Below, piece by piece: positions 38,943-64,000 of a DNA stretch of 64,000 nucleotides. The position numbers and the translations under genes were made by a program. The notes beneath the pieces were generated by a model. That model did no database searches. It had not been told where the DNA came from and saw only the letters and a list, made by a program, of their open reading frames with translations. The DNA comes from Oscillospiraceae bacterium (lineage in GTDB: Bacteria; Bacillota; Clostridia; Oscillospirales; Oscillospiraceae): positions 434,001 to 498,000 of the forward strand of contig AP025582.1 in assembly GCA_022846075.1 (NCBI GenBank). Direction: 5' to 3'. Position 1 is the stretch's first letter. Each line of letters opens with the position of its first letter.

Positions 38943-38957
38943 GCTTAAAAAAGAACG

Positions 38958-38996
38958 TAAAAAGCATCTGATTTCCGAAAAAATCAGATGCTTTTT
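38958..38996 (-). terminator. Terminator hairpin copy next to the tRNA fragment
   Basis: Stem AAAAAGCATCTGATTT with its complement, almost identical to the terminator at 63904-63941 next to the tRNA-fMet gene. Together with the tRNA fragment it forms one arm of a direct repeat of about 92 bp. Confidence 0.65.
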
Positions 38997-39050
38997 TGGT
39001 TGCGGGGACAGGATTCGAGCCTTCGGCCTCCGGGTTATGAGGCCGAAGAG
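38997..39050 (-). pseudogene. tRNA-fMet 3' fragment (degenerate)
   Basis: 54 bases match the 3' part of the initiator tRNA at the right window edge with about six differences, including the CATAA anticodon loop and the CCCCGCAACCA end. The upstream half is not recognisable: no 5' acceptor strand can pair. Changes break the anticodon stem (C:C opposite) and the T loop (TTC to CTC). It therefore cannot be a functional tRNA. The altered bases create a 10-bp perfect hairpin (CTTCGGCCTC / GAGGCCGAAG). Likely a displaced tRNA 3' end or decayed duplicate. Confidence 0.7.
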
Positions 39051-39112: not shown

Positions 39113-39622
39113 TCACCGCTCAGTCAGTGACCTGCATATTGTTTGAAGGGAGTGTTTGCGTTTGGCGGATAGGTATTCCTCCTGCGTGGCGTAAACCGAC
39201 AGGGCGCCGAAGGGGCAGATCCGAACGCAGGCGGGAGTGAGTCCGGCTCGGACACGCTGGATGCAGCCGTCGCATTTGGTGAGCTTGTCTCGAGCGTTAA
39301 AAGACGGGATGCCGAAGGGGCAGGCCATGGCACAGGAGTGGCAGCCGATGCAGTTGATCGGATCATAAAGGATAAGACCGCTGTCCGGGTCCTTCCGAAG
39401 AGAGGCGGTAGGGCAGCCGGCGACACAGGGGGCGTCGGCACAGTGCATGCAGGCCATGGAGAGATTTGTGTATCGTATCCGCTCCCCCACCTGCTCCTCC
39501 AGGGTATACACTGAGCGGAAGGGAACGTCTCCATTCAGGGGATCGGTGTCGTTCTGATCCATACAGGCCACGGCACAGGCCCCGCAGGAGACGCATTTTT
39601 CCATATCCAGGTCGATAATCAT
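39113..39622 (-). CDS. 4Fe-4S electron-transfer subunit of molybdopterin oxidoreductase
   Basis: 169-aa DmsB/HycB-type iron-sulfur protein. Four cluster motifs: CVSCGACAVACMD, CMHCADAPCVAGCP, CIGCHSCAMACP, and CDGC...CVRICP, so up to four [4Fe-4S] clusters. Start ATG 39622 has GAGAGGAG just upstream and overlaps the stop of the catalytic subunit (ATGA). It would carry electrons away from the molybdenum centre, perhaps to the FAD/NAD oxidoreductase encoded upstream. No twin-arginine signal or membrane anchor is encoded, so the complex is probably cytoplasmic. Confidence 0.88.
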   Translation of the reverse strand: MIIDLDMEKCVSCGACAVACMDQNDTDPLNGDVPFRSVYTLEEQVGERIRYTNLSMACMHCADAPCVAGCPTASLRKDPDSGLILYDPINCIGCHSCAMACPFGIPSFNARDKLTKCDGCIQRVRAGLTPACVRICPFGALSVYATQEEYLSAKRKHSLQTICRSLTER

Positions 39623-41766
39623 TGTCTCCTCTCCGTCCTTTCCTCTTTGGTCACGGCGCACCGTGTCTGCCGGAATCCGGGGAACCCGGAATAGGGGTCC
39701 AGGTGATCCGCTGGGATGAGCTCATTGGCGTCCGCCTCCCGGTAGCCGTGGTAGAGGTAGACTTCCCCGGGGGACACCGCCTCGGTAAGATGGGCCTTGA
39801 CGTGGACCGAACCCGCGGAGGTGGACAGGCAGATTCCATCCCCCTCCTGGAGACCCAGTCCGGCGGCGTCGCCGGGATTCAGGTCGGCGGCGGGCTCCGG
39901 CCGGAGGGAACGGACCCAGGGCACGTCATGGAGGCGGGAATGAATGGCGTTGGGAAGCCGGGCGCCGGTGACCAGGGTGAGGGGAAAGCGGGCCGGGTCG
40001 GAGCTGTCGAAGCTGTCGGTGTAGGTGGGCAGGGGATCTAAGCCGGGGCGATGGAGCGCGTCGATAAGCAGCGAGAAAAGCTCCAGCTTGCCCGAGCGGG
40101 TCTCGAAGCCCCGCGCCAGATAGGTTCCGGGCCGGTACGGTTTGAACTCTTTTACCCGAATGGGCAGGGGCGCGGCCTTCAGCTCCTCCAGGGTGACCGA
40201 GAGGTCAGAGATGAGGTAGCGCATGGTGTTTTCGTATCCGCTTTTTAAAAGAGAATCGTTCAGATCCAGGTACGAGGCCAGCTCACAGATAATCTGAGGA
40301 TCGGGTTTGGAACTGTACAGGGGGGAGATCGCCGGCTCGGTGCAGGTGAGGAGACCTCCGGGATAGCCCTTGAGCTCACTGCGCTCCAAGGAGGAGCAGG
40401 CGGGCAGAAGGATATCGGCATAGGCGCTCATGTCCGTCATCACCAGATCCACACAGACCACCAGCTCCAGCTTTTCCAGAGCCGAAAGCAGCCGCTTGGG
40501 CTGTGGGAACATCCGGTGGTTCATGCCGAAGCCTACCAGGGCTTTGATGGGGTAGGGGGTTCCCTCTTCAATCTGGCGGGTCAGGTCCATGGCCTGAAAC
40601 TCGTCGGAGAGGGCGGCCCAGACGGGGAAGCGGGCGTCTCCGATCCGCTCTTTGCAGTGCTGGGGCGCGGTGTCGGTGACGAAGCTGTGTTCCTTGGTGT
40701 CAAAACCGCAGTCGGTGTAGACAAGGCTGGTGTGGATGGGGAGCATCCCGCCTTTGCGGTCAATGTTTCCGCATAGGGCCTGAAGGGCGATGACGGCCCG
40801 GAAGTTGTTGTAGCCGTTTATGTGGTGCGTGAGAGTGGCGGAGGGGGAGTAGGCGGCTGCGGGGCCGTTGGTGGCATAGAGCTTTGCGGCGGCGTACAGC
40901 AGTTCCTTGGGCACTCCGGTGACCTCCTGGGTGTATTCCGGAGTGAAGCGGGCGGCATAGGCCCGGAATTCCTCAAAGCCATAGACATATCGATCCACAT
41001 AGTCCCGGTCCAGCCACTCGTTTTCGATTACCAGATGGCAGAGTCCCAAGGCCAGGGCCCCGTCTGTGCCGGGGCGGAGGCGGAGATGGATGTCCGCCAG
41101 CTTGGTGGAGGTGGGGGTCTCGCGGGGGTCGATGATGATGACCTTGCCGCCCCTGGCCTTGAAGGCGTTCAACTCCTTGCCCATGATGTGCCAGTTGATA
41201 AGCACGTTGCTCCCCCAGCCCAGATAGGTGTTGGCATTTCTCAGATCAGGCCGGTAGTTGCGCCCGGTCACCGTGGTCCAGGCCATCTGGGTGGCCTTGA
41301 AACAGCTGGAGCTCTCGGTGCCGTAGTTCTCGCTGCCAAAGGAGTGGACAAGACGGTGGAGCCAGGGCCGGTACCATTTGGAGTAGCCGGTGTACCAGGC
41401 TACGGCCTCCGGTCCGTCCTCCTTCTTGATGCGGTTCAGAGTCCCGGCGATTTCCCGGTATGCCTCCTCCCAGCTGATGGGCTCGAAGGAACCGCTCCCT
41501 CGCGGCCCCACCCGGCGCAGAGGGGTCTTGATCCGGCCCTCCCGGTAGACATATTGACGGCTGCAGGCTCCCTTGGTACACAATTTGCCGTCGCTGCCGG
41601 GGAAGCCCTCGGTGCCCTCCACCTTGAGGATGGCGCCGTCCTTTACATACACATCCAGACCGCAGTGGGCGCCTGGGGTACAGATGTCACAGATGCTATG
41701 CTTGATCTCAATGCCCGTATCGGGCCCCGGAATTTTGGATTTTTGGCGCTGGTCCGTTTCACACAT
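39619..41766 (-). CDS. Molybdopterin-dependent oxidoreductase, catalytic subunit
   Basis: 715-aa member of the DMSO reductase/formate dehydrogenase superfamily. The N-terminal [4Fe-4S] site uses Cys 26, 29, 35 and 63 (HSICDICTPGAHCG ... GKLCTKG). GTESSSCFKA near 155 may provide the Cys ligand to Mo/W. The molybdopterin-guanine-dinucleotide domains (WGSNVLINWH, VIIIDPRETPT) and the C-terminal beta-barrel (LPNAIHSRLHDVPWVRSL, LNPGDAAGLGLQEGDG) are complete. No TAT signal. Start ATG 41766 follows GGAGG; it overlaps the previous stop by eight bases. Substrate unknown; its place in a catabolic operon suggests oxidation or hydroxylation of an intermediate. Confidence 0.87.
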   Translation of the reverse strand: MCETDQRQKSKIPGPDTGIEIKHSICDICTPGAHCGLDVYVKDGAILKVEGTEGFPGSDGKLCTKGACSRQYVYREGRIKTPLRRVGPRGSGSFEPISWEEAYREIAGTLNRIKKEDGPEAVAWYTGYSKWYRPWLHRLVHSFGSENYGTESSSCFKATQMAWTTVTGRNYRPDLRNANTYLGWGSNVLINWHIMGKELNAFKARGGKVIIIDPRETPTSTKLADIHLRLRPGTDGALALGLCHLVIENEWLDRDYVDRYVYGFEEFRAYAARFTPEYTQEVTGVPKELLYAAAKLYATNGPAAAYSPSATLTHHINGYNNFRAVIALQALCGNIDRKGGMLPIHTSLVYTDCGFDTKEHSFVTDTAPQHCKERIGDARFPVWAALSDEFQAMDLTRQIEEGTPYPIKALVGFGMNHRMFPQPKRLLSALEKLELVVCVDLVMTDMSAYADILLPACSSLERSELKGYPGGLLTCTEPAISPLYSSKPDPQIICELASYLDLNDSLLKSGYENTMRYLISDLSVTLEELKAAPLPIRVKEFKPYRPGTYLARGFETRSGKLELFSLLIDALHRPGLDPLPTYTDSFDSSDPARFPLTLVTGARLPNAIHSRLHDVPWVRSLRPEPAADLNPGDAAGLGLQEGDGICLSTSAGSVHVKAHLTEAVSPGEVYLYHGYREADANELIPADHLDPYSGFPGFRQTRCAVTKEERTERRQ

Positions 41767-43018
41767 GGCGGTTTCCTCCGATCTTTCGGATAAATTCCCT
41801 GCTGATCCCACACCCCAGCAGAGCAGCGGTCTGGACCGGGGTAAGGCCGCATCCGGGCCGGTCCAGCTGGGCCAAGAGCAGGCTCTTGAGGATCCCGGCG
41901 GCCCGGCGGCAGTCCAGGAGATTGACGCATTGCAGCGATCCGTCCCGGACCCGGGCCTCGATGTAGGGCCCCGCGGATAACTCGCCCCAGACCACCGGTT
42001 CCCCCTCCCGCCGGCTGTCTCCTAAACCGACGAAGTCCAGGCCCATAAAATGGGTGATGTTGTGTATGATGTTCCCGGCATAGGGTTCGGGGTGTCCCGC
42101 CATGGCCCGGCCGGCGGCCTCGCCCTGGCGGGCGGCGTTAGCCCACAGGCCGATGGGCATGGTTTGGCCGGACTGGAGCTCGGTGCCTTCACAGCAGTCT
42201 CCGGCGGCGTAGATGCCGGGGCAGGAGGTCGACATATTGCCGTCAACTACGATACCCCGGCCCACTTGGACGCCGCAGCCGGGGCCGGACACCGTGTCTG
42301 CTTCGGCGCGGGTGCCGATGCACAGACAGATGAGATCGGCGGGGAGCAGTGCGCCGGAGGTTAAAACCACGCCCTCGGGGGAGATCTCCCGCACCATGGC
42401 GCCCCAGGTGAAGCGGAGACCCCGCAGGGTGAGACGCCGTTCCAACTCCCGGCCCACGTGGGGGAAGGCGGCCAGGGGGAAGAGCCAATCGGCCCCGTCG
42501 GCGATGGTTACCTCTACTCCGCGGGCAGCAAGAAGCTCGGCCACTTTGATGCCAACCATGGACCCTCCCACTACCACGGCCCGGCGGGGAGGGGCGGACG
42601 CAAGACGGGCCCGGAGCCGCTCGGCGTCCTCGAGGGTGCGCATCACAAGGACCCTGGAATCGGGGAGGCCTTTGAGCGGGGGCAGGAGGGCCCGGGCACC
42701 GGTGGAGACCAAGATGGCGTCGAAGAAATAGGAGCTGCCGTCCTCCAGGGTCAGGGTATTTTGGGAGATGGAGCTGACAGTCTGGCCCCCGTGGAACTGG
42801 AGGTCCAGTTGGGAACAGAGGGAATCGAGATTTCCGAAAGGAAAGACCCCGTCCAGGGAGATGCGGTCGGAGGCATAATAGGTGGAGAGCATGGGGTTGA
42901 AGGGGGGCATATTCAGCCGGTCGAAGACGTGGAGTTCTCCGGTCCTGTCCAGGGACCGGATGGCCTTGGCGGCGTGGTAACCCGCGCAGCCAAAGCCCAC
43001 TATGGCGTATCGTTTCAT
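41759..43018 (-). CDS. NAD(P)/FAD-dependent oxidoreductase
   Basis: 419-aa pyridine nucleotide-disulfide-type flavoprotein without redox-active disulfide, similar in build to NirB/rubredoxin reductase N-terminal domains. FAD motif AIVGFGCAGYHAAKAI, NAD motif AVVVGGSMVGIKVAELLAAR (about 145), and the second FAD motif CPGIYAAGDCCEG (about 260). The C-terminal part (about 320-419) is a NirB-like extension. It overlaps the molybdopterin subunit gene by eight bases and could move electrons between NAD(P)H and the Mo-FeS enzyme. Confidence 0.87.
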   Translation of the reverse strand: MKRYAIVGFGCAGYHAAKAIRSLDRTGELHVFDRLNMPPFNPMLSTYYASDRISLDGVFPFGNLDSLCSQLDLQFHGGQTVSSISQNTLTLEDGSSYFFDAILVSTGARALLPPLKGLPDSRVLVMRTLEDAERLRARLASAPPRRAVVVGGSMVGIKVAELLAARGVEVTIADGADWLFPLAAFPHVGRELERRLTLRGLRFTWGAMVREISPEGVVLTSGALLPADLICLCIGTRAEADTVSGPGCGVQVGRGIVVDGNMSTSCPGIYAAGDCCEGTELQSGQTMPIGLWANAARQGEAAGRAMAGHPEPYAGNIIHNITHFMGLDFVGLGDSRREGEPVVWGELSAGPYIEARVRDGSLQCVNLLDCRRAAGILKSLLLAQLDRPGCGLTPVQTAALLGCGISREFIRKIGGNRHV

Positions 43019-43045
43019 TCTATCACCCGCTTGCCAACGGCCCGG

Positions 43046-44035
43046 TCAAAGGAGCCGCAGGGTATGGCCGATCCCCGCGTCCCGGGCCTTGCGGTAGGCC
43101 AGATCCCCCACCGCCACGTCCAGGGCCCCCATGCCGAAGTGGGTGTATACAATGATTTCCCGCTCGGATTCCCGCCCAGGTTTTTTCCCCAGGATAACTT
43201 CTCCCAGGTCGGCGGCCACATCCTCTTTTCGGAGGCCATAGTGCTTCAGACCAGGATTTTCAAGGATCTGGAGGGTGTCCTGGCTCCAGGAGCCCAAGAT
43301 CCATTTATCGGCCTGGGCGGCGCAGGCGCCGTCCAGGTCAAAAAAGGTGTAGAGGCCTACGACCAAACAGCCCGGGGATAAGTCTTCGTAGTGAATGAGC
43401 GGGGTGCGGGATGTGGTGGCCATCACCAGAATGTCGGCTCCCTGAGCGGCCTGGGCAGGCGTGGCACAGCACACCACATCAGCCCGGTCTGCGTGAAGCC
43501 GGGCCAACTGCGTCATGGCCTGTGGGTCACGGTCACACAGCCGCAGGGCGGTCAGCTGGGGGAACTGCTCCAGGAAGCTCTGGGCCGCAGCGCGGCCCTC
43601 CTCCCCGCAGCCCACGATGGCCAGGGTTGCGGCGCCGGATTTGGCCAGGTATTTGGCGGCCACCACGCCGTGGCCGCCGCCGGTGCGCATGGCGGTGATG
43701 GCGGAGGCCTCCATGAGGGCGTAAGGCTGGCCGGTGGAGCCGTCGGTGAGGATGAGCAGATTCCCGCCGCAGGTGGGCAGGCCCGGCTTTTGGTGGGTCA
43801 TCATACTGACCCACTTGATCCCGGCGACGCCCGTGTCCTTGAGATAGGCGGACATGGCTTTGATCATATTGGTGTGGGCATCGTCAAGCCAGATGGGCTC
43901 TTTGACCGGGTGAAAGAGAAGTCCTTTTCCGGAGCGGCGGAAGGTCTCCTCCACTGTGTCCACCACCTCGGGGTAGGTGAGCAGGCCTGCTACGTCCCCG
44001 GCGGTCAATACGGTCAGATCTAGATGGTATTCCAT
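43046..44035 (-). CDS. Ornithine cyclodeaminase/mu-crystallin family protein
   Basis: 329-aa NAD(P)-binding enzyme. TMIKAMSAYL and GVAGIKWVSM are the substrate-lysine region; ATLAIVGCGEEGRAAAQSFL is the Rossmann motif. The family includes ornithine cyclodeaminases, ketimine reductases, alanine dehydrogenases and the opine-type enzyme SbnB, so true ornithine cyclodeaminase activity cannot be assumed. Start ATG 44035 has AGGAGG five bases upstream. In this operon it may cleave or form an imine-linked amino acid. Confidence 0.85.
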   Translation of the reverse strand: MEYHLDLTVLTAGDVAGLLTYPEVVDTVEETFRRSGKGLLFHPVKEPIWLDDAHTNMIKAMSAYLKDTGVAGIKWVSMMTHQKPGLPTCGGNLLILTDGSTGQPYALMEASAITAMRTGGGHGVVAAKYLAKSGAATLAIVGCGEEGRAAAQSFLEQFPQLTALRLCDRDPQAMTQLARLHADRADVVCCATPAQAAQGADILVMATTSRTPLIHYEDLSPGCLVVGLYTFFDLDGACAAQADKWILGSWSQDTLQILENPGLKHYGLRKEDVAADLGEVILGKKPGRESEREIIVYTHFGMGALDVAVGDLAYRKARDAGIGHTLRLL

Positions 44036-44103
44036 ATGTACCTCCTGTGCTGCTTTGCTTTTCGGGAAATTCCCCGCGCCGCGCTCCACTGTGGAAAGAC
44101 GGC

Positions 44104-44139
44104 GCGGCCACGGCTTTTCAAAAAGCCGCGGCCGCTTTT
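44104..44139. repeat. Intergenic inverted repeat inside the sigma-54 operon
   Basis: 15-bp arms (GCGGCCACGGCTTTT and AAAAGCCGCGGCCGC) with one mismatch and a 2-nt spacer, between the racemase-like and cyclodeaminase-like genes. No T tract follows the stem on the minus strand. Possibly an mRNA processing or stabilising hairpin. Confidence 0.5.
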
Positions 44140-44157
44140 GGAAAGCCAGGGGAGTGA

Positions 44158-44865
44158 TCAGTGGTCGAAGAGGGAGCCCGGTATCAGCCGGTCGCTCCGG
44201 CCCAGGGTGCGCAGGGCCATCCAGAGAGTGGCCTGGTTGCTGGTGATAACGCTCTTTTGAAAGTCGCTCTCCAGTCCCCGGATGTAGTCCAGGACCCGCA
44301 GGCCCGCGCAGCTGATAAAGATGCAGTTGGACTGGGGGCGGTCGGTGTCCCGAACGAGGGCGTAGAGCTGATCGAAAGGGACCTTGGCTACCAAGTTCAT
44401 CTGGACGATGCCCAGCCCTTTGGAAGACACCAGATGAAAACCGCTTTCCTCCAAGAAACGGATCTCCACCTCGTTGACTGAATCGGGGTAGGGGGTGACC
44501 ATGGTCAGATGGGTCCCCCCGACGGATTTGAGGGCGGCCACCACCGCGGTGGTGGTAGTGATGGCGGGCAGGCCCGTGGCCTTTTCCAGCCGCCGGATGA
44601 TTTCCAAGTCGTAGCCCAGGCCCCTGATAAAACTGCCCGAGGTGCAGTTAAAGACCACCAGATCCGCCCCCTGGGCGGCCAAATCCTTCGCGGCGTCGTC
44701 CGCCATGTCTCCAAAGTCGCTGAGGACCTGGGGGTCGATCTTGGCCAGGGGGATCTGCCGGGTGAGCAGCTTGATGTCCGCCGGGGCGTATTTGGCCATC
44801 TCGATCTCCGGGTTCTTGATGCCCCCGCCGGGGCAGATGAGGCCGATGGTCAAGTCCTGCTTCAT
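44158..44865 (-). CDS. Asp/Glu racemase superfamily protein (maleate isomerase/arylmalonate decarboxylase-like)
   Basis: 235-aa enzyme of the aspartate/glutamate racemase superfamily. Two candidate catalytic Cys are present: VVFNCTSGSFIRGLG near residue 75 and NCIFISCAGLRVLD near 188, the placing expected of racemases and maleate isomerases. ITTTTAVVAALKSVG and VTPYPDSVNEVE are typical of the maleate isomerase/arylmalonate decarboxylase branch. Start ATG 44865 with GAGGAGGA six bases upstream. It may racemise or isomerise an acidic intermediate. Confidence 0.82.
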   Translation of the reverse strand: MKQDLTIGLICPGGGIKNPEIEMAKYAPADIKLLTRQIPLAKIDPQVLSDFGDMADDAAKDLAAQGADLVVFNCTSGSFIRGLGYDLEIIRRLEKATGLPAITTTTAVVAALKSVGGTHLTMVTPYPDSVNEVEIRFLEESGFHLVSSKGLGIVQMNLVAKVPFDQLYALVRDTDRPQSNCIFISCAGLRVLDYIRGLESDFQKSVITSNQATLWMALRTLGRSDRLIPGSLFDH

Positions 44866-44877
44866 GGCCACTCCTCC

Positions 44878-46290
44878 TCAGCGGTGGAACAGATGGCTGA
44901 GGGAGGCCACGTCCTTGCAGCTCTCCAGCCCCATGATGGCCCGGATCGCCTCTTCGCACTGCTCGGGGGAGAGCACCCCGGCGGTCTGCATCCGGAAGCG
45001 CTGGGCCATCTCCTCCCAGGTGAACATGGCCTTGGGGTGGCCGGGGTGTACGTCCATGGAGGCCTCATAGACCTTCCCGTCCTTGGTGGTGATGGTCATG
45101 TGCTTCATGGGGTAGGTGCCCTCCTGCATGAGCTTGAAGCCGCCGCCCAGAGTGTGCTGGGGGCTGGGGCCGCTCTTGACCTTCTGGGCCAGGGCCAACA
45201 CCTTGGGATTCTTCATGTTCTCCAGAGAGTACCACTGGGCCCCCGGCGTGCGGTCATAGAGCATGGCGGCGATGCAGAAGGGGATGCTGAACTGGGCCTG
45301 GGTCAGGGAGGTGTACCCCTCGGGGCGGATGCCCATGCGCAGCTGGGTGGGGGGGTCCAGGACGATCTCCTGGATCTCCTCGGGAGCGATGTGGTGTTTA
45401 CCTGTAATGTCGTAGGCCAGTTCCATGGCGGTCTGGTTCCACATGTTGGCCGGCCAGTGCTTGAGCAGGGTCTCCATGGTCAGGTACCAGCTGCCCAGGT
45501 CCTTGGTGTACCACTCGGGCCGGGGGTCGGGGGTCATGTGGATGGCGTAGACCTTGGGGTCGTCGAAGCAGTCCTGATAGTTTTCTACGCCGCTCTGGGC
45601 GGTCTGGCAGAGCTGGACGCCGTCCCTGGCCCGGAAGCCGTGGAGGTAATGGTAGGCGTCCGACATGGTGGTGTGGTGAAGGCTCCCGTTCGTGGTGCTG
45701 CAAGCGGTGCCGAAGCCCAGGGCCTGGTTGACCTGCTCCTCGGTCAGCCCCATCAGCTTGGCGGCGGGGACAATGGCGGCAAAGATCTGCCAGCTGGTCA
45801 GGCCCCAGCCGTTGCCCTTCTCCTGGCCGGCAAGATCCTGGATAGCCATGGCGACTCTCTGGTAGACCTCATAGCCCGCCACCACGGCGGTGAGGAAATC
45901 CCTGCCGGATTTATGGAGCCCCTCGCTGACGGCCCAGGCCGTGGGGATCACGCCAGCCGAGGGATGGCCGGTCCAGGAGCAGTCCTCCCAATCCAGCATG
46001 TCGGACAAGGCGCCGTTGACAAAGGCGGCGTTGGACATGCTCAGCTTGCTGCCGTCGATCCAGCAGGTGGCCTCACCCCCGGAGCCGCCGTTAAAGCGCT
46101 TGCCCAATTCGATGGCCCGTCCGGACATGGGCACACCGTTGGCGGCAATGGCCACGCCGATGGTCTGCATGGCGATCATTTTGGCCCGGTCAATGACCTC
46201 GGGGGGAATATCTTCGTAGTTGAGTCCTTTGATGTATGCGGAAAGGGTGTCGGTATAGTGTGTAGTCAGCTCGTGGATGCTGAATTTCAT
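44878..46290 (-). CDS. MmgE/PrpD family protein
   Basis: 470-aa enzyme of the MmgE/PrpD fold, which includes 2-methylcitrate dehydratase, cis-aconitate decarboxylase and iminodisuccinate epimerase. Features: LNYEDIPPEVIDRAKMIAMQTIGVA, AFVNGALSDMLDWEDCSWTGHPSAGVIPTA-type active-site segment (residues about 90-117), and the C-terminal domain with KHMTITTKDGKVYEASMDVHPGHP. No citrate-cycle or methylcitrate partner is near. The iminodisuccinate epimerase precedent makes an imino- or amino-diacid substrate attractive, though unproven. AGGAGG precedes the ATG. Confidence 0.87.
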   Translation of the reverse strand: MKFSIHELTTHYTDTLSAYIKGLNYEDIPPEVIDRAKMIAMQTIGVAIAANGVPMSGRAIELGKRFNGGSGGEATCWIDGSKLSMSNAAFVNGALSDMLDWEDCSWTGHPSAGVIPTAWAVSEGLHKSGRDFLTAVVAGYEVYQRVAMAIQDLAGQEKGNGWGLTSWQIFAAIVPAAKLMGLTEEQVNQALGFGTACSTTNGSLHHTTMSDAYHYLHGFRARDGVQLCQTAQSGVENYQDCFDDPKVYAIHMTPDPRPEWYTKDLGSWYLTMETLLKHWPANMWNQTAMELAYDITGKHHIAPEEIQEIVLDPPTQLRMGIRPEGYTSLTQAQFSIPFCIAAMLYDRTPGAQWYSLENMKNPKVLALAQKVKSGPSPQHTLGGGFKLMQEGTYPMKHMTITTKDGKVYEASMDVHPGHPKAMFTWEEMAQRFRMQTAGVLSPEQCEEAIRAIMGLESCKDVASLSHLFHR

Positions 46291-46311
46291 ATTGGTTCCT
46301 CCTATGTCGTG

Positions 46312-47364
46312 TCAGCCGTTTTGCAGCCGTTCGTTGAGGGCCTTCGGATCCAATCCGCCCAGCCCCAGGGCTTCCAGCGTGCGGCCGGAGGTGTAGTCCC
46401 GGCCGTTGAGGACCGAGACAAGGGTGAGCAGAGCGTCCAGGATCGGAGTTGACAGCTCCAGCAGCCGGGCCAGGGACCACAGCAGGCACAGGCCGGTGGA
46501 GGCGTCCTCGGAGATATAGCGGTGGGTGAGGCTGTCCGGGCCTGAGACGTCCCGGAAGGGATCCATCTCAGGAAATTGGTCAAAGGCCAGGATGCGCCGC
46601 CGGGACTCGGCGAAAGAGACGAACTGGTAGCCCAGGGCCTCCATCACCGCCTTCTTCTCCAGCTCCAAAGCGTCGATGAGCGCCACCACGTGGGGGGAGA
46701 AGCCGTCCCGGTAGAGGCGAAAGGAAGGGTTCCGGTCGATATTGGCCGCGTTGAGCAGGGAGGCGGCTACATGGTTGTTGAGATTGGGGGAGTTGAGCGT
46801 GGTCTGGATGGGGTTGGGGGCGGGCAGACACTCATAGATCCCCTCCAGAGCTTCCAGCAGCCGGGGTGTGTCCCGTCCCGGGGAGGCGGCCACCCGTTTG
46901 GGCTTGTAGCCCATGACACAGGTGACTGTGGCGGGGGCGGTCATGCGGCAGGGGTAGACGTTGCCCCCCATCTCCCCCACCACGGCCGGGTGGTCCGGCC
47001 CCAGGGTATTGCGCAGGAGGATGGAGCCGCAGTTGCCGGCGGAAAAGCAGACGCACTGGCCGGGCTGGAGCAGGGGGGCCAGGGCCCGGGAGATCCGTTC
47101 ATGGCGGCTGGCAAGCATGGCGATGAAGATGACGTCGGCGCCCTCCACCGCGTCCTCCAAACGGTCGGTGATCAGGTGGGGGGAGGCGAAGCCCTCTCCC
47201 GCCAGGCCCCGCATGGTGATACCGCCCAGGCGGATCACGTCGGTCAGATTTTCGTGGAAATACTCGGGAAAGTCAAAAAGAGATACCGAAAAACCTCTCC
47301 GGCCCAGATCCGCGGCGATGGTACATCCGGTACCTCCGCCGCCCAATACGGCAATTTTTTTCAT
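46312..47364 (-). CDS. NAD/NADP octopine/nopaline dehydrogenase family protein
   Basis: 350-aa dehydrogenase. N-terminal Rossmann domain KIAVLGGGGTGCTIAADLGR and C-terminal helical octopine-dehydrogenase domain (residues about 185-340, including NLNNHVAASLLNAANIDRN with the conserved His). The family oxidises or forms opines, that is N-(carboxyalkyl) amino acids, or reduces related 2-keto acids. The start is the ATG at 47364, since the upstream open frame is a continuation inside the permease gene. The ribosome site is weak, so translation may be coupled to the permease gene 23 bp upstream. Confidence 0.83.
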   Translation of the reverse strand: MKKIAVLGGGGTGCTIAADLGRRGFSVSLFDFPEYFHENLTDVIRLGGITMRGLAGEGFASPHLITDRLEDAVEGADVIFIAMLASRHERISRALAPLLQPGQCVCFSAGNCGSILLRNTLGPDHPAVVGEMGGNVYPCRMTAPATVTCVMGYKPKRVAASPGRDTPRLLEALEGIYECLPAPNPIQTTLNSPNLNNHVAASLLNAANIDRNPSFRLYRDGFSPHVVALIDALELEKKAVMEALGYQFVSFAESRRRILAFDQFPEMDPFRDVSGPDSLTHRYISEDASTGLCLLWSLARLLELSTPILDALLTLVSVLNGRDYTSGRTLEALGLGGLDPKALNERLQNG

Positions 47365-47387
47365 AGCGTATTCTGACGGAACTGCCG

Positions 47388-48764
47388 TCAGCCCTCCAGG
47401 TTGGCGCGGGTCTCCTCGTCGGCCTTGCGGAGGAACTCCGCCGTTTTTTCCCGCAGATTGTTTTTCTCGATGATCTTGTTTCCGAAAATCAGGATATAGA
47501 GCAGTACAACGGCCAGACAGATGAGGATGATGATGAGCACGTTTTTGGGCAGACCCAGGGCGTTTTTCACAATGAAAAAGAGCATCAGGGCGTTGGAGAC
47601 GATCGTCAGGGCCATCAGTTTGGGTGTGGACATGTAGAAGCGGGAGGCCTTCCACTGGTCGGGAAAGAGCTTGGGGAGCAGGATGGGGGTCAGGTTGGGG
47701 ATCATCATGGTAAAGAGGACCAGACCGGAGGAGAGCCGGGAGAGGGTCTGACCGTCCACGTTGAGCAGGATGGGGATGATGCCCATGAGCCAGAACAGGA
47801 TGCAAAGGCGGTGGGGCACGCCGTATTTGTTTTTCTTGGCCAGGCCGTGGGGGAGCCAGCCGTCCACACAGGCCTGGATGGCGGCGCTGTAATAGAGGAC
47901 AAAGCAGGAGTTCATGGTGGTCATGATGGCCAGGAGGGCACCGCCGATGATGAAGAAATTATAGAAAAGAGGATTTCCGTCGTAGACCGTGTGGGCGGCG
48001 ACGGTCAGGGGCTTGCCCGCCACCTCGGAAATGGGCAGGACGCCGGAGCCCACCAGGCCCACCACGGCAAAAAAGAAGGCGGCCACCAGGGTGGACCAGA
48101 AAATGGCCTTGGGCAGGATGCGCTGGGGCTTATCCATGCTGCCGGCGTATTCCAGCAGGGTGAAGCCGCCGCTGATGGCGAAGATGACCAGGCTCATGGC
48201 GTCCACGATGCCGTTGGCGCCGTGGGGGAACATGACCTCCGGGCGGGTGATGGAGGCGAAGTCTACCTTGGGCAGGCCGAAGATGACAAAGGTGGAGAGC
48301 GCGACCAGCAGAATGGTGGTCATGATGTTCTGCATCTTGGCGGCGTTTTTGATGCCGAACAGGTTCATGACAAAGACAATGGTGATGATGGTAACGCCCA
48401 CTACGGTGGGGTTTACGTTGATGAGGGAACAGAAGTAGGTGGCAAAGGAAAAACCGAAGAAGGCCATTGTTACCCGGGCGATGGTGGACACGCCGATATA
48501 GAAGGCCCCGAACTTGGGGGAAAACAGGTTGGAGTAAGCGTAGGAGGCACTGGTACGGGGGATAGTGGTGCCCATGATGAGGGAGGGGAACTTACAGATA
48601 AAAATGCAAACGGCGGCCAGGATGTAGGCCCAGAAGACGCCGCTGCCGGTTTTGGCAATGGCGATACCGGTCATGGTGATAACACCCGCGCCGATGGTCT
48701 GACCCACGCCCATAAAGAAGCAGTCGCCAAACCGTAGGTTCTTCTTGCTGGGATTCGATGCCAT
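47388..48764 (-). CDS. APC family amino acid permease
   Basis: 458-aa amino acid permease, about 12 helices. TM1 is FGDCFFMGVGQTIGAGVITM (the Gly-rich loop of the substrate site), TM3-5 are clear, and the C-terminal tail is charged. Start ATG 48764, seven bases after GAGGAGG; the extension to 48824 would include the leader. It is the first gene after the sigma-54 promoter and so probably imports the substrate of the operon, most likely an amino acid or amino acid derivative. Confidence 0.87.
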   Translation of the reverse strand: MASNPSKKNLRFGDCFFMGVGQTIGAGVITMTGIAIAKTGSGVFWAYILAAVCIFICKFPSLIMGTTIPRTSASYAYSNLFSPKFGAFYIGVSTIARVTMAFFGFSFATYFCSLINVNPTVVGVTIITIVFVMNLFGIKNAAKMQNIMTTILLVALSTFVIFGLPKVDFASITRPEVMFPHGANGIVDAMSLVIFAISGGFTLLEYAGSMDKPQRILPKAIFWSTLVAAFFFAVVGLVGSGVLPISEVAGKPLTVAAHTVYDGNPLFYNFFIIGGALLAIMTTMNSCFVLYYSAAIQACVDGWLPHGLAKKNKYGVPHRLCILFWLMGIIPILLNVDGQTLSRLSSGLVLFTMMIPNLTPILLPKLFPDQWKASRFYMSTPKLMALTIVSNALMLFFIVKNALGLPKNVLIIILICLAVVLLYILIFGNKIIEKNNLREKTAEFLRKADEETRANLEG

Positions 48765-48863
48765 AATGATTCCTCCTCTAGTTCTCGTATGTGGGAGCAG
48801 GGGTTCCAACTGTCCGCGCAACATATCTTCAGGCCTGAAGTGTTATGTTTCACTTATTTGTAA

Positions 48864-48879
48864 TGCAAATTCGGTGCCA
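48864..48879 (-). promoter_or_regulatory. Sigma-54 (-24/-12) promoter
   Basis: On the minus strand TGGCAC (48879-48874), five bases, TTGCA (48868-48864): a full match to the sigma-54 consensus, including the GG and GC doublets at exact spacing. Transcription would begin near 48852 and read through the operon down to 39113. Confidence 0.9.
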
Positions 48880-48965
48880 AGTCAAAAAACAAAGAAATGG
48901 CGGTGCTTTTTTGTGGAGAACATCAAAAAAGGATTGACTTTGTTTGGCAGGATGACGAAAAGCGA

Positions 48966-49010
48966 GCCCCATTTACCCCGTTTATTGCAATAATGGGGGA
49001 TAAATGGGAC
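48966..49010. promoter_or_regulatory. Candidate enhancer (UAS) for the sigma-54 activator
   Basis: Near-perfect palindrome of about 45 bp, with arms of the form GyCCCATTTA(T)CCCC..TTATTG and a perfect 12-bp core TTATTGCAATAA (48982-48993). It lies 87-131 bp upstream of the -24 element, the usual enhancer distance. The activator gene begins its minus-strand coding just beyond (stop at 49101), so the site belongs to the operon promoter. Confidence 0.75.
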
Positions 49011-49100
49011 CCGCTTTTTGAAGGGATGTCCGTTGTGCAAAAGGAGCGCAATGGGTGTTTCCTTGAGTTGTGGTCTAGTGGAGATGTCTTCATACCCCGG

Positions 49101-51104
49101 CTATCCCAGGTATGCCCTGCCGGAAGGAGTCAGTTCAATGCCCCGGCGGCCCCTGAATACGGTGATAAGTCCCCGGTCCGCCAGATCCTCTAATATCTCT
49201 CGGACCGCCGACTCTGTGAGGGGGCGGCCCTGCTGCTGCAGCTGGGTTCGGATGCTGCGCCGCCCCGCCCCCAGGCCCAACGTGTTATAGTGCCAGATGA
49301 TGCCGAGCACCCGGACGGCCACATCCCCCTCCGCCGAAAGGGGAGAAGCTGTTCCCGCAGCAGTTCCCGCCGGGGGGAGGCGGCGCTGAATGTAAACGGG
49401 CAGGGAGCTGGGGGTAATTTCCTCCAGACCCAGATTTGCCAGGTATTCCACACAGTTGGCCAGCTCCCGCACATTTCCCTCGAAGGGATAGGAGATGATG
49501 GCCTCCACTGCCTGGGGAGAAGGGGTAAAGTGATAGCTGTTTTCATCCTTTAGATATTGGATGAGGTAGATGATATCCTCCTTCCGCTCCCGCAGAGGGG
49601 GGATAGAGAGGGGCAAGACGTTCAGACGGTAATAGAGGTCGCTTCGGAAGGCACCCTCCTGGATCATGCGGCCCAGATCTTTGTTGGTGGCGGCAATGAC
49701 GCGTACGTCTACCGGGATGACGCTGTCCCCGCCCACCCGGGTGATTTCCTTTTCCTGAAGAGCCCGCAGCAGGCGGACCTGAAGATGGAGAGGCATATCC
49801 CCAATTTCGTCCAAAAAGAGGGTGCCGGTGTGGGCCAGCTCAAAAAGGCCCAATTTCCCCTCTTTTCGGGCACCTGTAAAAGCACCGCCCTCGTAGCCGA
49901 AGAGCTCGCTCTCCAGCAGGGATTCGGCGATGGCGCCGCAGTTTACCGCCACGAAAGGCCGCTGTTTGCGCCCCGAGAGATTGTGGATGGCCTGGGCGAA
50001 AAGCTCCTTGCCCACGCCGGTCTCCCCCGTGATGAGCACATTGGCCTCGGACAGGGCGATGCGGCGCGCGATATTTTTGGTGGACTGAATGGCCTCGCTG
50101 ATACCGGCGATGTCGTCGATGGTATACTTGGCGGTGTGCTTTTTATGAATAAGCTGGCGGCGCAGATCGTTCTGCCGCTTTTCCTGCTCCCAGTAGTTGG
50201 AGATGCGCAGGTAAGCCACCTGGTCCTGGTGGTGGGAGATGACGTTGATGCTGACGATATACTGCCGCCCCCGGTAGGTGATGACCCGTTCCTGAAAGCC
50301 CTTAAAGCCGTTGGCGGAAAATGCGTCCATGGAGGGGAAGATGTCCAGCAGGTTCTTGCCGATCAGATTTTCCTGTGGGATACCCACCACCTTTTCCGCA
50401 TAGCGGTCACAATATTCGATGATATTTCCGCTGGAGAGAAGCATCAGCCCCTCCTGGGCCAGCTCGTCCAGCACGTCCTCGTGGTAGCTGGCTACGGTGA
50501 TGCTTGGATTGAAGAAAAGCTCGGTTCGCATGCGCCGGTAGTAATCCTGAAAGGCCGGCCGGGTCAGCAGTTCCGGCATGCTCAGGGCGCAAAAGATCTC
50601 CAGAATGGTGGAGACACTGAAATAACTATGGGGAATCAAAAGAACCTTATGCTCTTCGGGGACCTGAAGGGAAGCCCGGCCAAACAGAAGCACGTTTTGG
50701 GCCAGTTTTCGCTTTTCGATGCCGGGATGCCAGACCGTCATGCTGCTGCGCCGGATGCCCAGCTTTTCCAAAAGCATCATCTTCCGGTTGGAGTCCACCA
50801 GTGTTCCGTCGCCCACAATGGAGAGAGGGCCGGTCCGCTCCATGGACCGGATCTGTTGGAAGGTCTCCTCTTCCAGGGTGTAGTAGGCCAGGACCACGGA
50901 GGTGACATGGGGAAGGTGCTGCTTGGTATAGGCAATAAAAAAAGGGCTGGTCAGGACGGCTACATCGGCCTCCAGGTCATCGGAGCCCAAGGCCGAGAAG
51001 AGCCTGGTCTCGATGCTTACCGCCCCCGGCAGAAGTTCCGCTAGAGACTGCCGGTAAAAGTCCAGCCTTTGGGCCGTGTGCCCCAGAATCACAATCTTTT
51101 TCAA
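49101..51104 (-). CDS. Sigma-54-dependent transcriptional activator
   Basis: 667-aa enhancer-binding protein. Residues 1-220 are an unrecognised sensing domain with an alpha/beta pattern reminiscent of PrpR N-terminal domains. A PAS domain follows (about 225-310, LLSSGNIIEYCDRYAEKVVG). The AAA+ domain (about 335-570) is complete: Walker A GETGVGKE, loop 1 GAFTGA, Walker B LFLDEIGD, arginine fingers in the RSDLYYRLNVLPL region. The C-terminus (about 590-667) lacks the usual Fis-type HTH and instead looks like a winged helix (SAVREILEDLADRGLITVFR). TTG start at 51104, seven bases after AAGGGGG. It probably switches on the adjacent sigma-54 operon. Confidence 0.88.
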   Translation of the reverse strand: MKKIVILGHTAQRLDFYRQSLAELLPGAVSIETRLFSALGSDDLEADVAVLTSPFFIAYTKQHLPHVTSVVLAYYTLEEETFQQIRSMERTGPLSIVGDGTLVDSNRKMMLLEKLGIRRSSMTVWHPGIEKRKLAQNVLLFGRASLQVPEEHKVLLIPHSYFSVSTILEIFCALSMPELLTRPAFQDYYRRMRTELFFNPSITVASYHEDVLDELAQEGLMLLSSGNIIEYCDRYAEKVVGIPQENLIGKNLLDIFPSMDAFSANGFKGFQERVITYRGRQYIVSINVISHHQDQVAYLRISNYWEQEKRQNDLRRQLIHKKHTAKYTIDDIAGISEAIQSTKNIARRIALSEANVLITGETGVGKELFAQAIHNLSGRKQRPFVAVNCGAIAESLLESELFGYEGGAFTGARKEGKLGLFELAHTGTLFLDEIGDMPLHLQVRLLRALQEKEITRVGGDSVIPVDVRVIAATNKDLGRMIQEGAFRSDLYYRLNVLPLSIPPLRERKEDIIYLIQYLKDENSYHFTPSPQAVEAIISYPFEGNVRELANCVEYLANLGLEEITPSSLPVYIQRRLPPAGTAAGTASPLSAEGDVAVRVLGIIWHYNTLGLGAGRRSIRTQLQQQGRPLTESAVREILEDLADRGLITVFRGRRGIELTPSGRAYLG

Positions 51105-59329: not shown

Positions 59330-59707
59330 TTATCTCTCCCCGGCCTCCGGGCCGCCCTCCATGAGCCGGGAGAGGGCCTGTTCCATCTTCCGCCGGGACA
59401 CCGGCTTTTGGCAGAAAAACGGGACGCACAGCCGGTAGGCCTGGACGCCGAAGTCCAGGTCGGAGAACCAGATGAGTTTTCGGGACAGGAGCTTTGCGCT
59501 GGTGATGGTGTTGAGGCCCTCCACGCCGTTCTGGGCCACGAGCACACCGTCCGGCAGCGCCCGCTTCACCGCCGCGTCCAGCTCCGGCCAGTCCGCACAG
59601 CCGGTGACCTTTGCCTCCGCCCCCCGCTCCGCCAGACACCGCCGGGCCAGGTCCATCAGCCGCTCCCGCTCCGCCGCGTCATCGTCGCAGACGATCATGC
59701 TCCACAT
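59330..59707 (-). CDS. Degenerate response-regulator receiver protein
   Basis: 125-aa single-domain protein with a CheY-like pattern. The acidic pair is present (MIVCDDDAAERERLMDLARR), and the Lys near the end (FCQKPVSRRKM) matches the conserved receiver Lys. The phosphoacceptor Asp position (PDGVLVAQNG) has no clear Asp, so phosphorylation is doubtful. Start ATG 59707, eight bases after AAGGGGG. No output domain is present. It is divergent from the LytTR regulator and upstream of the SLH gene, and may act by protein contact in the same circuit. Confidence 0.7.
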   Translation of the reverse strand: MWSMIVCDDDAAERERLMDLARRCLAERGAEAKVTGCADWPELDAAVKRALPDGVLVAQNGVEGLNTITSAKLLSRKLIWFSDLDFGVQAYRLCVPFFCQKPVSRRKMEQALSRLMEGGPEAGER

Positions 59708-63942: not shown

Positions 63943-64000
63943 TGGTTGCGGGGACAGGATTTGAACCTGCGACCTCCGGGTTATGAGCCCGACGAGCTAC
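63943..64000 (-). tRNA. tRNA-fMet (CAT), 5' part beyond window
   Basis: The visible 58 bases (minus strand) match the 3' part of an initiator tRNA: D-stem 3' strand GTAGCTC, anticodon stem TCGGG/CCCGG with the three G:C pairs typical of initiator tRNA, loop CTCATAA, T arm with TTCAAAT and CCCCGCAACCA at the 3' end. CCA is encoded. Confidence 0.9.

Follow-up and report, generated by a model that had tools for sequence, protein, structure and literature searches.

What substrate does an eight-gene operon serve when it joins an opine-dehydrogenase-type enzyme to a molybdopterin oxidoreductase? The question is raised by a 64,000-nt stretch of DNA from an Oscillospiraceae bacterium (hereafter the window; positions 434001–498000 of a single-contig 3.23 Mb genome), in which the operon proper comprises eight intact minus-strand genes (g8 to g1, 39113–48764). 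Our reading, to which we assign a probability of roughly 55%, is that the operon would take up and degrade, under anaerobic conditions, a chiral carboxylate with an alpha-N (or alpha-O) substituent and probably several carboxylate groups, the molybdenum (Mo) enzyme providing the coupling to NAD(H). The gene set, promoter, activator, conservation, and catalytic residues were read from sequence; every reaction we infer from them.

Pfam and NCBIfam profile scans of the window proteins agree with the enzyme families of an initial annotation and refine two of them, g4 and g5. All on the minus strand, the genes encode an APC-superfamily amino acid permease (g1, 47388–48764; PF13520, 8e-32); an NAD-dependent dehydrogenase of the octopine/N-(1-D-carboxylethyl)-L-norvaline dehydrogenase (CENDH) type (ODH; g2, 46312–47364; PF02317, 9e-26); an MmgE/PrpD-family protein of a distinct clade (g3, 44878–46290; PF03972 and PF19305); an enzyme of the Amdase/Asp-Glu racemase family, racemase/maleate-isomerase type (g4, 44158–44865; PF17645, the Amdase family, 4e-43); an imine/amino acid oxidoreductase of the ornithine-cyclodeaminase/mu-crystallin (OCD) family (g5, 43046–44035; PF02423); an FAD/NAD(P) oxidoreductase (FADox; g6, 41759–43018; Pyr_redox_2); a molybdopterin oxidoreductase of the PsrA/FdhF/acetylene-hydratase branch (g7, 39619–41766; Molybdopterin, Molydop_binding, and Fe4S4); and a DmsB/HybA-like electron-transfer subunit (g8, 39113–39622; Fer4_11 and Fer4_7). 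Direct reading of g8 finds 16 Cys in four motifs, which fits the 4x[4Fe-4S] subunit annotated initially.

The initial annotation had placed the operon at 39113–51104. That interval is filled by nine minus-strand genes: the eight at 39113–48764, which stand as an operon, and regulator R (49101–51104), which is a separate gene. The description of eight closely spaced genes behind a sigma-54-type promoter is borne out by intact open reading frames, by intergenic gaps (from g8 to g1) of −4, −8, 27, 122, 12, 21, and 23 bp, with the 122 bp lying between g5 and g4, and by an exact −24/−12 site.

Conservation of the gene set in related genomes

A family sample of 250 genomes was searched with the window ODH, and the loci found were compared by tblastn with all window proteins at E ≤ 1e-8. 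The search returned 67 places in 41 genomes. Close ODHs occupy ten places in nine genomes, namely the window and nine relatives at 37–46% identity (L016–L024), and all ten carry MmgE and FADox within 20 kb. Specifically, MmgE (one or two copies) and FADox are present at nine of the nine relatives' loci; the Mo enzyme is present at eight, the ninth stretch ending before it; and the racemase is present at eight, the exception (L017) starting at a contig edge. OCD is present at seven of the ten places, having been found near the ferredoxin-type gene (Fer4) once three stretches were extended (L094, L095, and L096), and at L018 an aspartate-dehydrogenase (AspDH) homologue (7e-31, below cut-off) lies within the conserved set, or module, instead of OCD. 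Eleven stretches covering 12 of the 57 more distant ODH places (L025–L035) contain no other module gene at E ≤ 1e-8.

All nine genomes with a close ODH also have close MmgE, racemase, and FADox (hypergeometric p of 1e-15, 6e-15, and 1e-10, respectively, with relatedness ignored). In these counts close MmgE means at least 37% identity, a cut set after the list had been seen (10 of 250 genomes; 18 at E ≤ 1e-30); racemase was counted at E ≤ 1e-15 (11 of 250) and FADox at E ≤ 1e-60 (24 of 250). A profile scan of genome contigs with the ODH alignment found at least 27 loci, at least seven of them with the module, one of which (L037) repeats L020. Among the matches listed, the module is carried by Oscillibacter sp. 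PC13, Flavonifractor sp. An306, and Pseudoflavonifractor sp. 524-17, and by metagenome-assembled genomes (MAGs) from Lachnospiraceae (two), Oscillospiraceae (one), and Clostridia (one). Several module-bearing relatives come from animal guts. A class-wide MmgE search matched one of 391 genomes, the window's own, with no locus outside the family; an order-wide ODH search matched two of 295, both within the family; and, within the genus, MmgE at E ≤ 1e-30 is present in three of 16 genomes, the window's included. In one congener (G900) the genes stand in the order LysR (by our reading), racemase, ODH, MmgE, FADox, Mo enzyme, Fer4, TRAP, MmgE, racemase, with no OCD.

In a tree from which G900 and a second congener (G901) were left out, the 16 module ODHs cluster in a single clade (100/98), separate from the 14 other ODHs, and the window ODH groups with those of L036, L016, and L017 (99/97). 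The core of the module is ODH with MmgE/PrpD, usually accompanied by a racemase-type enzyme; the Mo trio (g6–g8) is a separate unit with a different history. Because the enzyme set recurs in related bacteria, it very probably represents a genuine pathway for degrading some chiral acid or amino acid. The initial annotation had called for a search for conserved co-occurrence and had named scattered homologues as the sign of a chance assembly: the gene set does co-occur across genera, and such an assembly is excluded for the ODH–MmgE core.

Catalytic residues and the molybdenum unit

The helical domain of g2 matches PF02317 at 91.2 bits (gathering score, 30), and its nearest solved structure is CENDH 1bg6 (profile match, 6e-59). 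Residues H199, R283, and D288, which we take to have the catalytic roles, are invariant in ten of ten aligned ODHs and align to those of CENDH. A distant ODH (30%) in a Synergistaceae MAG (L042, 8085–11083) has a distant OCD-family gene (27%) some 1 kb away and no MmgE or trio in 21 kb.

For g3, the nearest solved relatives are iminodisuccinate (IDS) epimerase (2hp3, 1.5e-23) and then cis-aconitate decarboxylase, and g3 has the two-domain MmgE/PrpD architecture of these enzymes. The bases are H99 and Y145 in IDS epimerase and H103 and H159 in IRG1, as given in PMC7347537. With these residues as reference, 31 of the 32 aligned g3-clade MmgEs retain the first catalytic His, and none of the 32 has the second base, the second conserved His, or the Lys at the aligned columns. 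The register at the second base is uncertain, in that MAFFT and HMMER disagree and nine of the 32 have Tyr or His one column off, these nine being one copy from each of nine pairs; in window g3 neither alignment places Tyr or His as the second base so defined. In the MmgE tree, tandem pairs have separate origins (L063, 100/99; L044, 100/100; L036, 98/89; L023, 96/92; L018, weak), and these separate duplications, four of them well supported, suggest a repeated demand for two copies. Assignment of g3 as a 2-methylcitrate dehydratase was rejected, the NCBIfam models matching at 1e-8 to 4e-6, far below cut-off.

Cysteines C74 and C186 of g4 are both present in 22 of 23 aligned module copies, and a Cys pair at both catalytic positions fits a predicted two-cysteine racemase/maleate isomerase. 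Arylmalonate decarboxylase, which has one catalytic Cys, was rejected for g4 on account of that pair. Members of the g4 family also have other neighbours: at L090, and in a similar-looking arrangement at L091, genes resembling dihydroorotase/allantoinase and adenylosuccinate lyase; at L093, genes for aspartate carbamoyltransferase, an allantoinase-type enzyme, and an OCD-like protein. We read these loci as other pathways employing the racemase family.

The g5 protein matches PF02423 at 169 bits (gathering score, 24). Its best NCBIfam models are SbnB, alanine dehydrogenase, and the ornithine-cyclodeaminase family, every one below cut-off, so that the assignment is to the superfamily without a subfamily. 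The nearest solved structures are alanine dehydrogenase 1vll, SbnB-type 4m54, P2C reductase 6t3e, and iminosuccinate reductase 6rqa; K75, R118, and D234, presumably functional residues, are conserved in four of four aligned module copies.

In the trio, the nearest solved chain to g6 is 8c0z_E, the FAD subunit of an aldehyde oxidoreductase (AOR) complex (1.1e-35), and the nearest solved relatives of g7 are 2vpw, 9vap, 7qv7, and 2e7z. Formate dehydrogenase carries a His after its Mo-ligand Sec or Cys, as is also visible in alignments of FdhF and FdhA; in the alignment of g7 to these two proteins, the Cys at the Mo ligand is followed by Phe, and formate dehydrogenase was rejected for g7 on this ground. 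The 4x[4Fe-4S] gene adjoins the Mo-enzyme gene in trio loci where both were called. MobA-, MobB-, or MoeA-like genes (assigned by eye and unscanned) adjoin the module at L016, L018, L021, and L095, which fits a molybdopterin-dinucleotide cofactor for the Mo enzyme.

The trio also recurs away from the module. In the window's own genome the Mo enzyme is found at six places, the window and five further loci, mostly in other contexts. In particular, L063/L064 carries the trio with TRAP and an MmgE pair, L068 carries it with TRAP, and at L065–L067 it stands next to a PatB-type C-S lyase gene (L065 over cut-off, L066 and L067 by cluster), with carriers of the APC or NhaC-like kind. At L068 (genome positions 2335981–2338039) the Mo-enzyme match is split over two adjoining places. 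A PatB-type lyase, assigned by cluster, stands beside the trio at L071, L072, L078, and L082 as well, the carriers across these loci and L065–L067 being of amino acid, NhaC-like, or ABC type; we regard the trio with PatB-type lyase as a second trio-linked catabolic type. Other contexts are a DASS carrier alone (L085, scanned; L086 and L087, by cluster), where the Mo enzyme possibly acts on a carboxylate directly, in reduction or oxidation, and a CoA-transferase homologue (L083).

Phylogeny indicates more than one joining of trio and core. The window, G900, and L073 group together in their Mo enzymes (99/98) and FADox (96/93), apart from the trios of other modules, and this common lineage speaks against an isolated recruitment of the window trio. 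A single clade of all module copies is rejected for the Mo enzyme (p of the approximately unbiased test, p-AU, 0.011, the branches of G900 and L063 being long) and for FADox (p-AU, 1e-5), G900 being included in both. With G900 removed, one Mo-enzyme clade is not rejected (p-AU, 0.11; 0.088 with L063), and the FADox result is significant even then. The case for two Mo-enzyme lineages therefore rests on the test that includes G900 and on FADox. A functional connection is favoured by this repeated joining of one core by no fewer than two trio lineages.

Proposed pathway and alternative readings

In the proposed pathway, the APC permease (in relatives a TRAP, SSS, or other carrier) would import the substrate. 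The MmgE/PrpD protein and the two-cysteine racemase, both of cofactor-free acid-base families and often present in two copies each in relatives, would interconvert stereo- or positional isomers and so funnel them into one form. Oxidation of this form at its alpha carbon would fall to the NAD+-dependent ODH, whose Arg would bind the alpha-carboxylate and whose His/Asp pair would transfer the proton, and the OCD-family enzyme (in one relative the AspDH-like protein) would handle the released imine or amino acid. A further NAD(H)-linked redox step on substrate or product, serving as electron sink or source, may be carried out by the Mo enzyme, with the 4x[4Fe-4S] subunit and the FAD protein relaying the electrons. 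Expression would be switched on by the upstream activator and sigma-54, presumably upon sensing of the substrate.

Several observations weigh against this reading. MmgE and the racemase are each present once in the window, but twice in most relatives. OCD was not found at L016, L017, L018, L036, L041, L044, or G900, some of these stretches ending soon after the module, so the OCD step is not shared by all; no racemase turned up at L017 (the contig edge) or L036. Of 23 close MmgE places, 19 are in the module and four lie without ODH: the pair with TRAP and trio at the own-genome L063/L064, a single copy with TRAP in G094 (L088), and a single copy in G211 (L089), the last two having no ODH or trio in 16–20 kb. 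The racemase is within the module at 14 of 21 places. On the 12 kb contig of G901, TRAP, an MmgE pair, and an ODH (40%) stand without a trio; the several lineages and many other contexts of the trio make its link to the core a statistical one. The carrier also varies by lineage, so substrates may vary within the class: APC in the window; TRAP at L016 (scanned) and at L017, L023, G900, and G901 (by similarity); SSS at L036; and an unclassified membrane protein shared by nine loci (L019–L022, L024, L038–L040, and L044). A DASS-like label for this last and commonest module carrier was dropped, its scanned member (L019) having no Pfam or NCBIfam match.

The opine-like substrate proposed in the initial annotation is not established, given the lack of the g3 second base by alignment, the hydroxy-acid-type neighbours, the sugar-diacid-type regulator, and the many contexts of the trio. 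It would be an N-(carboxyalkyl) or N-(dicarboxyalkyl) amino acid, of the succinamopine, iminodisuccinate, or carboxymethyl-lysine type; MmgE and racemase would epimerise it, ODH would split it oxidatively to an amino acid and a keto acid, and OCD or AspDH would take up the imine or amino acid. We hold this pathway tentatively, as one possibility of rather low probability. The match of g2 to CENDH with its catalytic residues, IDS epimerase as the nearest solved MmgE relative, SbnB as the best (below cut-off) model for g5, the AspDH homologue at L018, and the APC permease of the window all speak for it, as does the presence of odh and mmgE in the opine catabolic segment of the succinamopine Ti plasmid pTiEU6 (PMC6733357). 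But on that plasmid about 19 genes separate odh from mmgE, catabolic oxidation is by flavin enzymes, and mmgE is assigned a propionate role by the authors. Moreover, the g3 clade lacks the second base of IDS epimerase at the aligned column, subject to the register uncertainty described above, and no MmgE is annotated near eight of eight plasmid ODH regions viewed, of 75 (10 kb in three and 8 kb in five, in a PLSDB gene table that is incomplete). Hydroxy acids fit about as well, and are to our mind as doubtful: a chiral hydroxy-polycarboxylate would pass through MmgE as a dehydratase or isomerase, ODH as a 2-hydroxyacid dehydrogenase, and the racemase as a keto- or ene-acid isomerase. Such a substrate is suggested by the TRAP and SSS carriers of relatives; by a sugar-diacid-recognition (CdaR-type) regulator at L018, with a cluster-mate at L044; by the hydroxyacyl-CoA dehydrogenase genes that adjoin four distant ODHs on plasmids, in three cases together with TRAP genes; by another distant plasmid ODH beside a sugar-diacid-type regulator and a sodium:solute symporter; and by a galactonate-dehydratase-like gene (below cut-off) adjoining the L073 trio, which is nearest to that of the window. 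The APC permease and OCD of the window, the lack in g3 of residues common to IRG1 and IDS epimerase, and the poor scores of the 2-methylcitrate dehydratase models argue the other way. The remaining plasmid ODH neighbours viewed are an amidohydrolase, AbgT, and TRAP (one region each).

The proposed pathway has also to be set against readings in which some or all of its genes are unrelated. The Mo trio could be a general NAD-linked electron-transfer or formate-type enzyme, co-transcribed as a bystander, and the six trio loci of the own genome, the contexts with PatB lyase, DASS, NhaC-like, ABC, and TRAP genes, and the trio-less contig of G901 speak for such a role. We nevertheless consider it improbable, since FADox is present at ten of ten close-ODH family places, at seven of seven module loci among the matches listed, and in G900, since at least two trio lineages joined the core, and since the Mo-ligand Cys of g7 is not followed by the His of formate dehydrogenase. 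That the whole operon is a chance assembly of unrelated genes, each from a family common on its own, is very improbable indeed, being contradicted for the core by cross-genus conservation and by the monophyly of the module ODHs. A bolder version of the pathway, on which we would place only a small bet, is that gut Clostridia have a hitherto undescribed anaerobic pathway for N-(dicarboxyalkyl) amino acids or similar chiral conjugates, with epimerases feeding every isomer to an opine dehydrogenase, as one of several catabolic modules built on a radiating NAD(H)-coupled Mo family (six loci in the window's own genome), each module with its own substrate. If the breakdown pathway is real, gut and rumen Clostridia possess a route devoted to certain chiral carboxylates, a class without an assignment in the literature searched, and an NAD-linked Mo enzyme family with several copies per genome awaits its substrates. 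Both points are testable because relatives named above and listed as isolates (PC13, An306, and 524-17) carry the module.

Operon control, flanks, and known systems

Upstream of g1, the sequence TGGCACCGAATTTGCA (48864–48879, minus strand) is an exact match to a −24/−12 (sigma-54-type) promoter and the only one in the 64 kb, against a chance expectation of 0.14 (an exact match arose in 14 of 100 shuffled sequences); with one mismatch allowed, two sites are found in the window and 2.1 expected, which is chance level. Regulator R (49101–51104, minus strand; Sigma54_activat, 2e-71), a sigma-54-dependent activator, lies 336 bp upstream of g1. Its AAA+ part is PrdR-like (PrdR model, 2e-104, below cut-off), and its first ~330 residues have no Pfam match. 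The genome holds rpoN at 627833–629155. With site, activator, and rpoN present, the operon is predicted by these sequence features to be under sigma-54 control. A putative activator-binding inverted repeat (48969–49007), about 100 bp upstream of the promoter, comprises the half-sites CCATTTATCCCC (48996–49007, minus) and CCATTTACCCCG (48969–48980, plus), the two best matches to the motif; at up to two mismatches the motif occurs 11 times against 13.5 expected, not above chance.

Downstream, a terminator-like hairpin with a 17-pair stem and a T tail lies 3′ of g8 (38996–38959, minus strand). A diverged repeat of ~106 bp (38945–39050 and 63943–64000, both minus strand) closes the operon; it is made up of the terminator and 3′ half of a tRNA-Met(CAT), which we read as initiator-type, and the intact copy of this tRNA stands 25 kb upstream on the same strand. 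The repeat could mark an old integration (att-like) duplication around 39–64 kb; no integrase is among the nine proteins scanned at 51–64 kb, a scan outside which the small open reading frame 59330–59698 falls.

The initial annotation knew of no described pathway with this combination, and we likewise found no paper in the open-licence literature, the scope of our search, that describes the combined gene set. Each family is known already; the same literature gave no account of their conserved combination, which we class as an anaerobic catabolic operon that includes a Mo-linked redox unit. Among the matches listed, PMC6733357 is the sole paper with MmgE and opine dehydrogenase together. As in the window, odh and mmgE of pTiEU6 lie in one segment; according to PMC6733357, the regulators there are of LysR type, oxidation is by flavin oxidases (the sac genes), and the main text holds no term racemase or ornithine cyclodeaminase, Mo enzymes not having been looked for.

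Single steps have closer counterparts. IDS epimerase (PDB 2hp0/2hp3) is the closest solved relative of g3, which retains the GHP histidine; the similarity is distant, and in the sequence alignment the positions of the second base Tyr and of the conserved His and Lys differ. CENDH (PDB 1bg6) shares its fold family and catalytic His, Arg, and Asp with g2. CENDH is a single enzyme for which we know of no MmgE, racemase, or Mo partner, and to our knowledge ectoine utilisation has no ODH, MmgE, or Mo trio. Ectoine utilisation likewise pairs an Amdase-family with an OCD-family enzyme (EutA/EutC; TIGR02990 and TIGR02992), and these models match g4 and g5 below cut-off. The tungsten aldehyde oxidoreductase AorABC has a polyferredoxin link and NAD coupling. 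Its FAD subunit (PDB 8c0z) is homologous to g6, whereas its catalytic subunit belongs to the AOR family and that of the window to the DMSO reductase superfamily.

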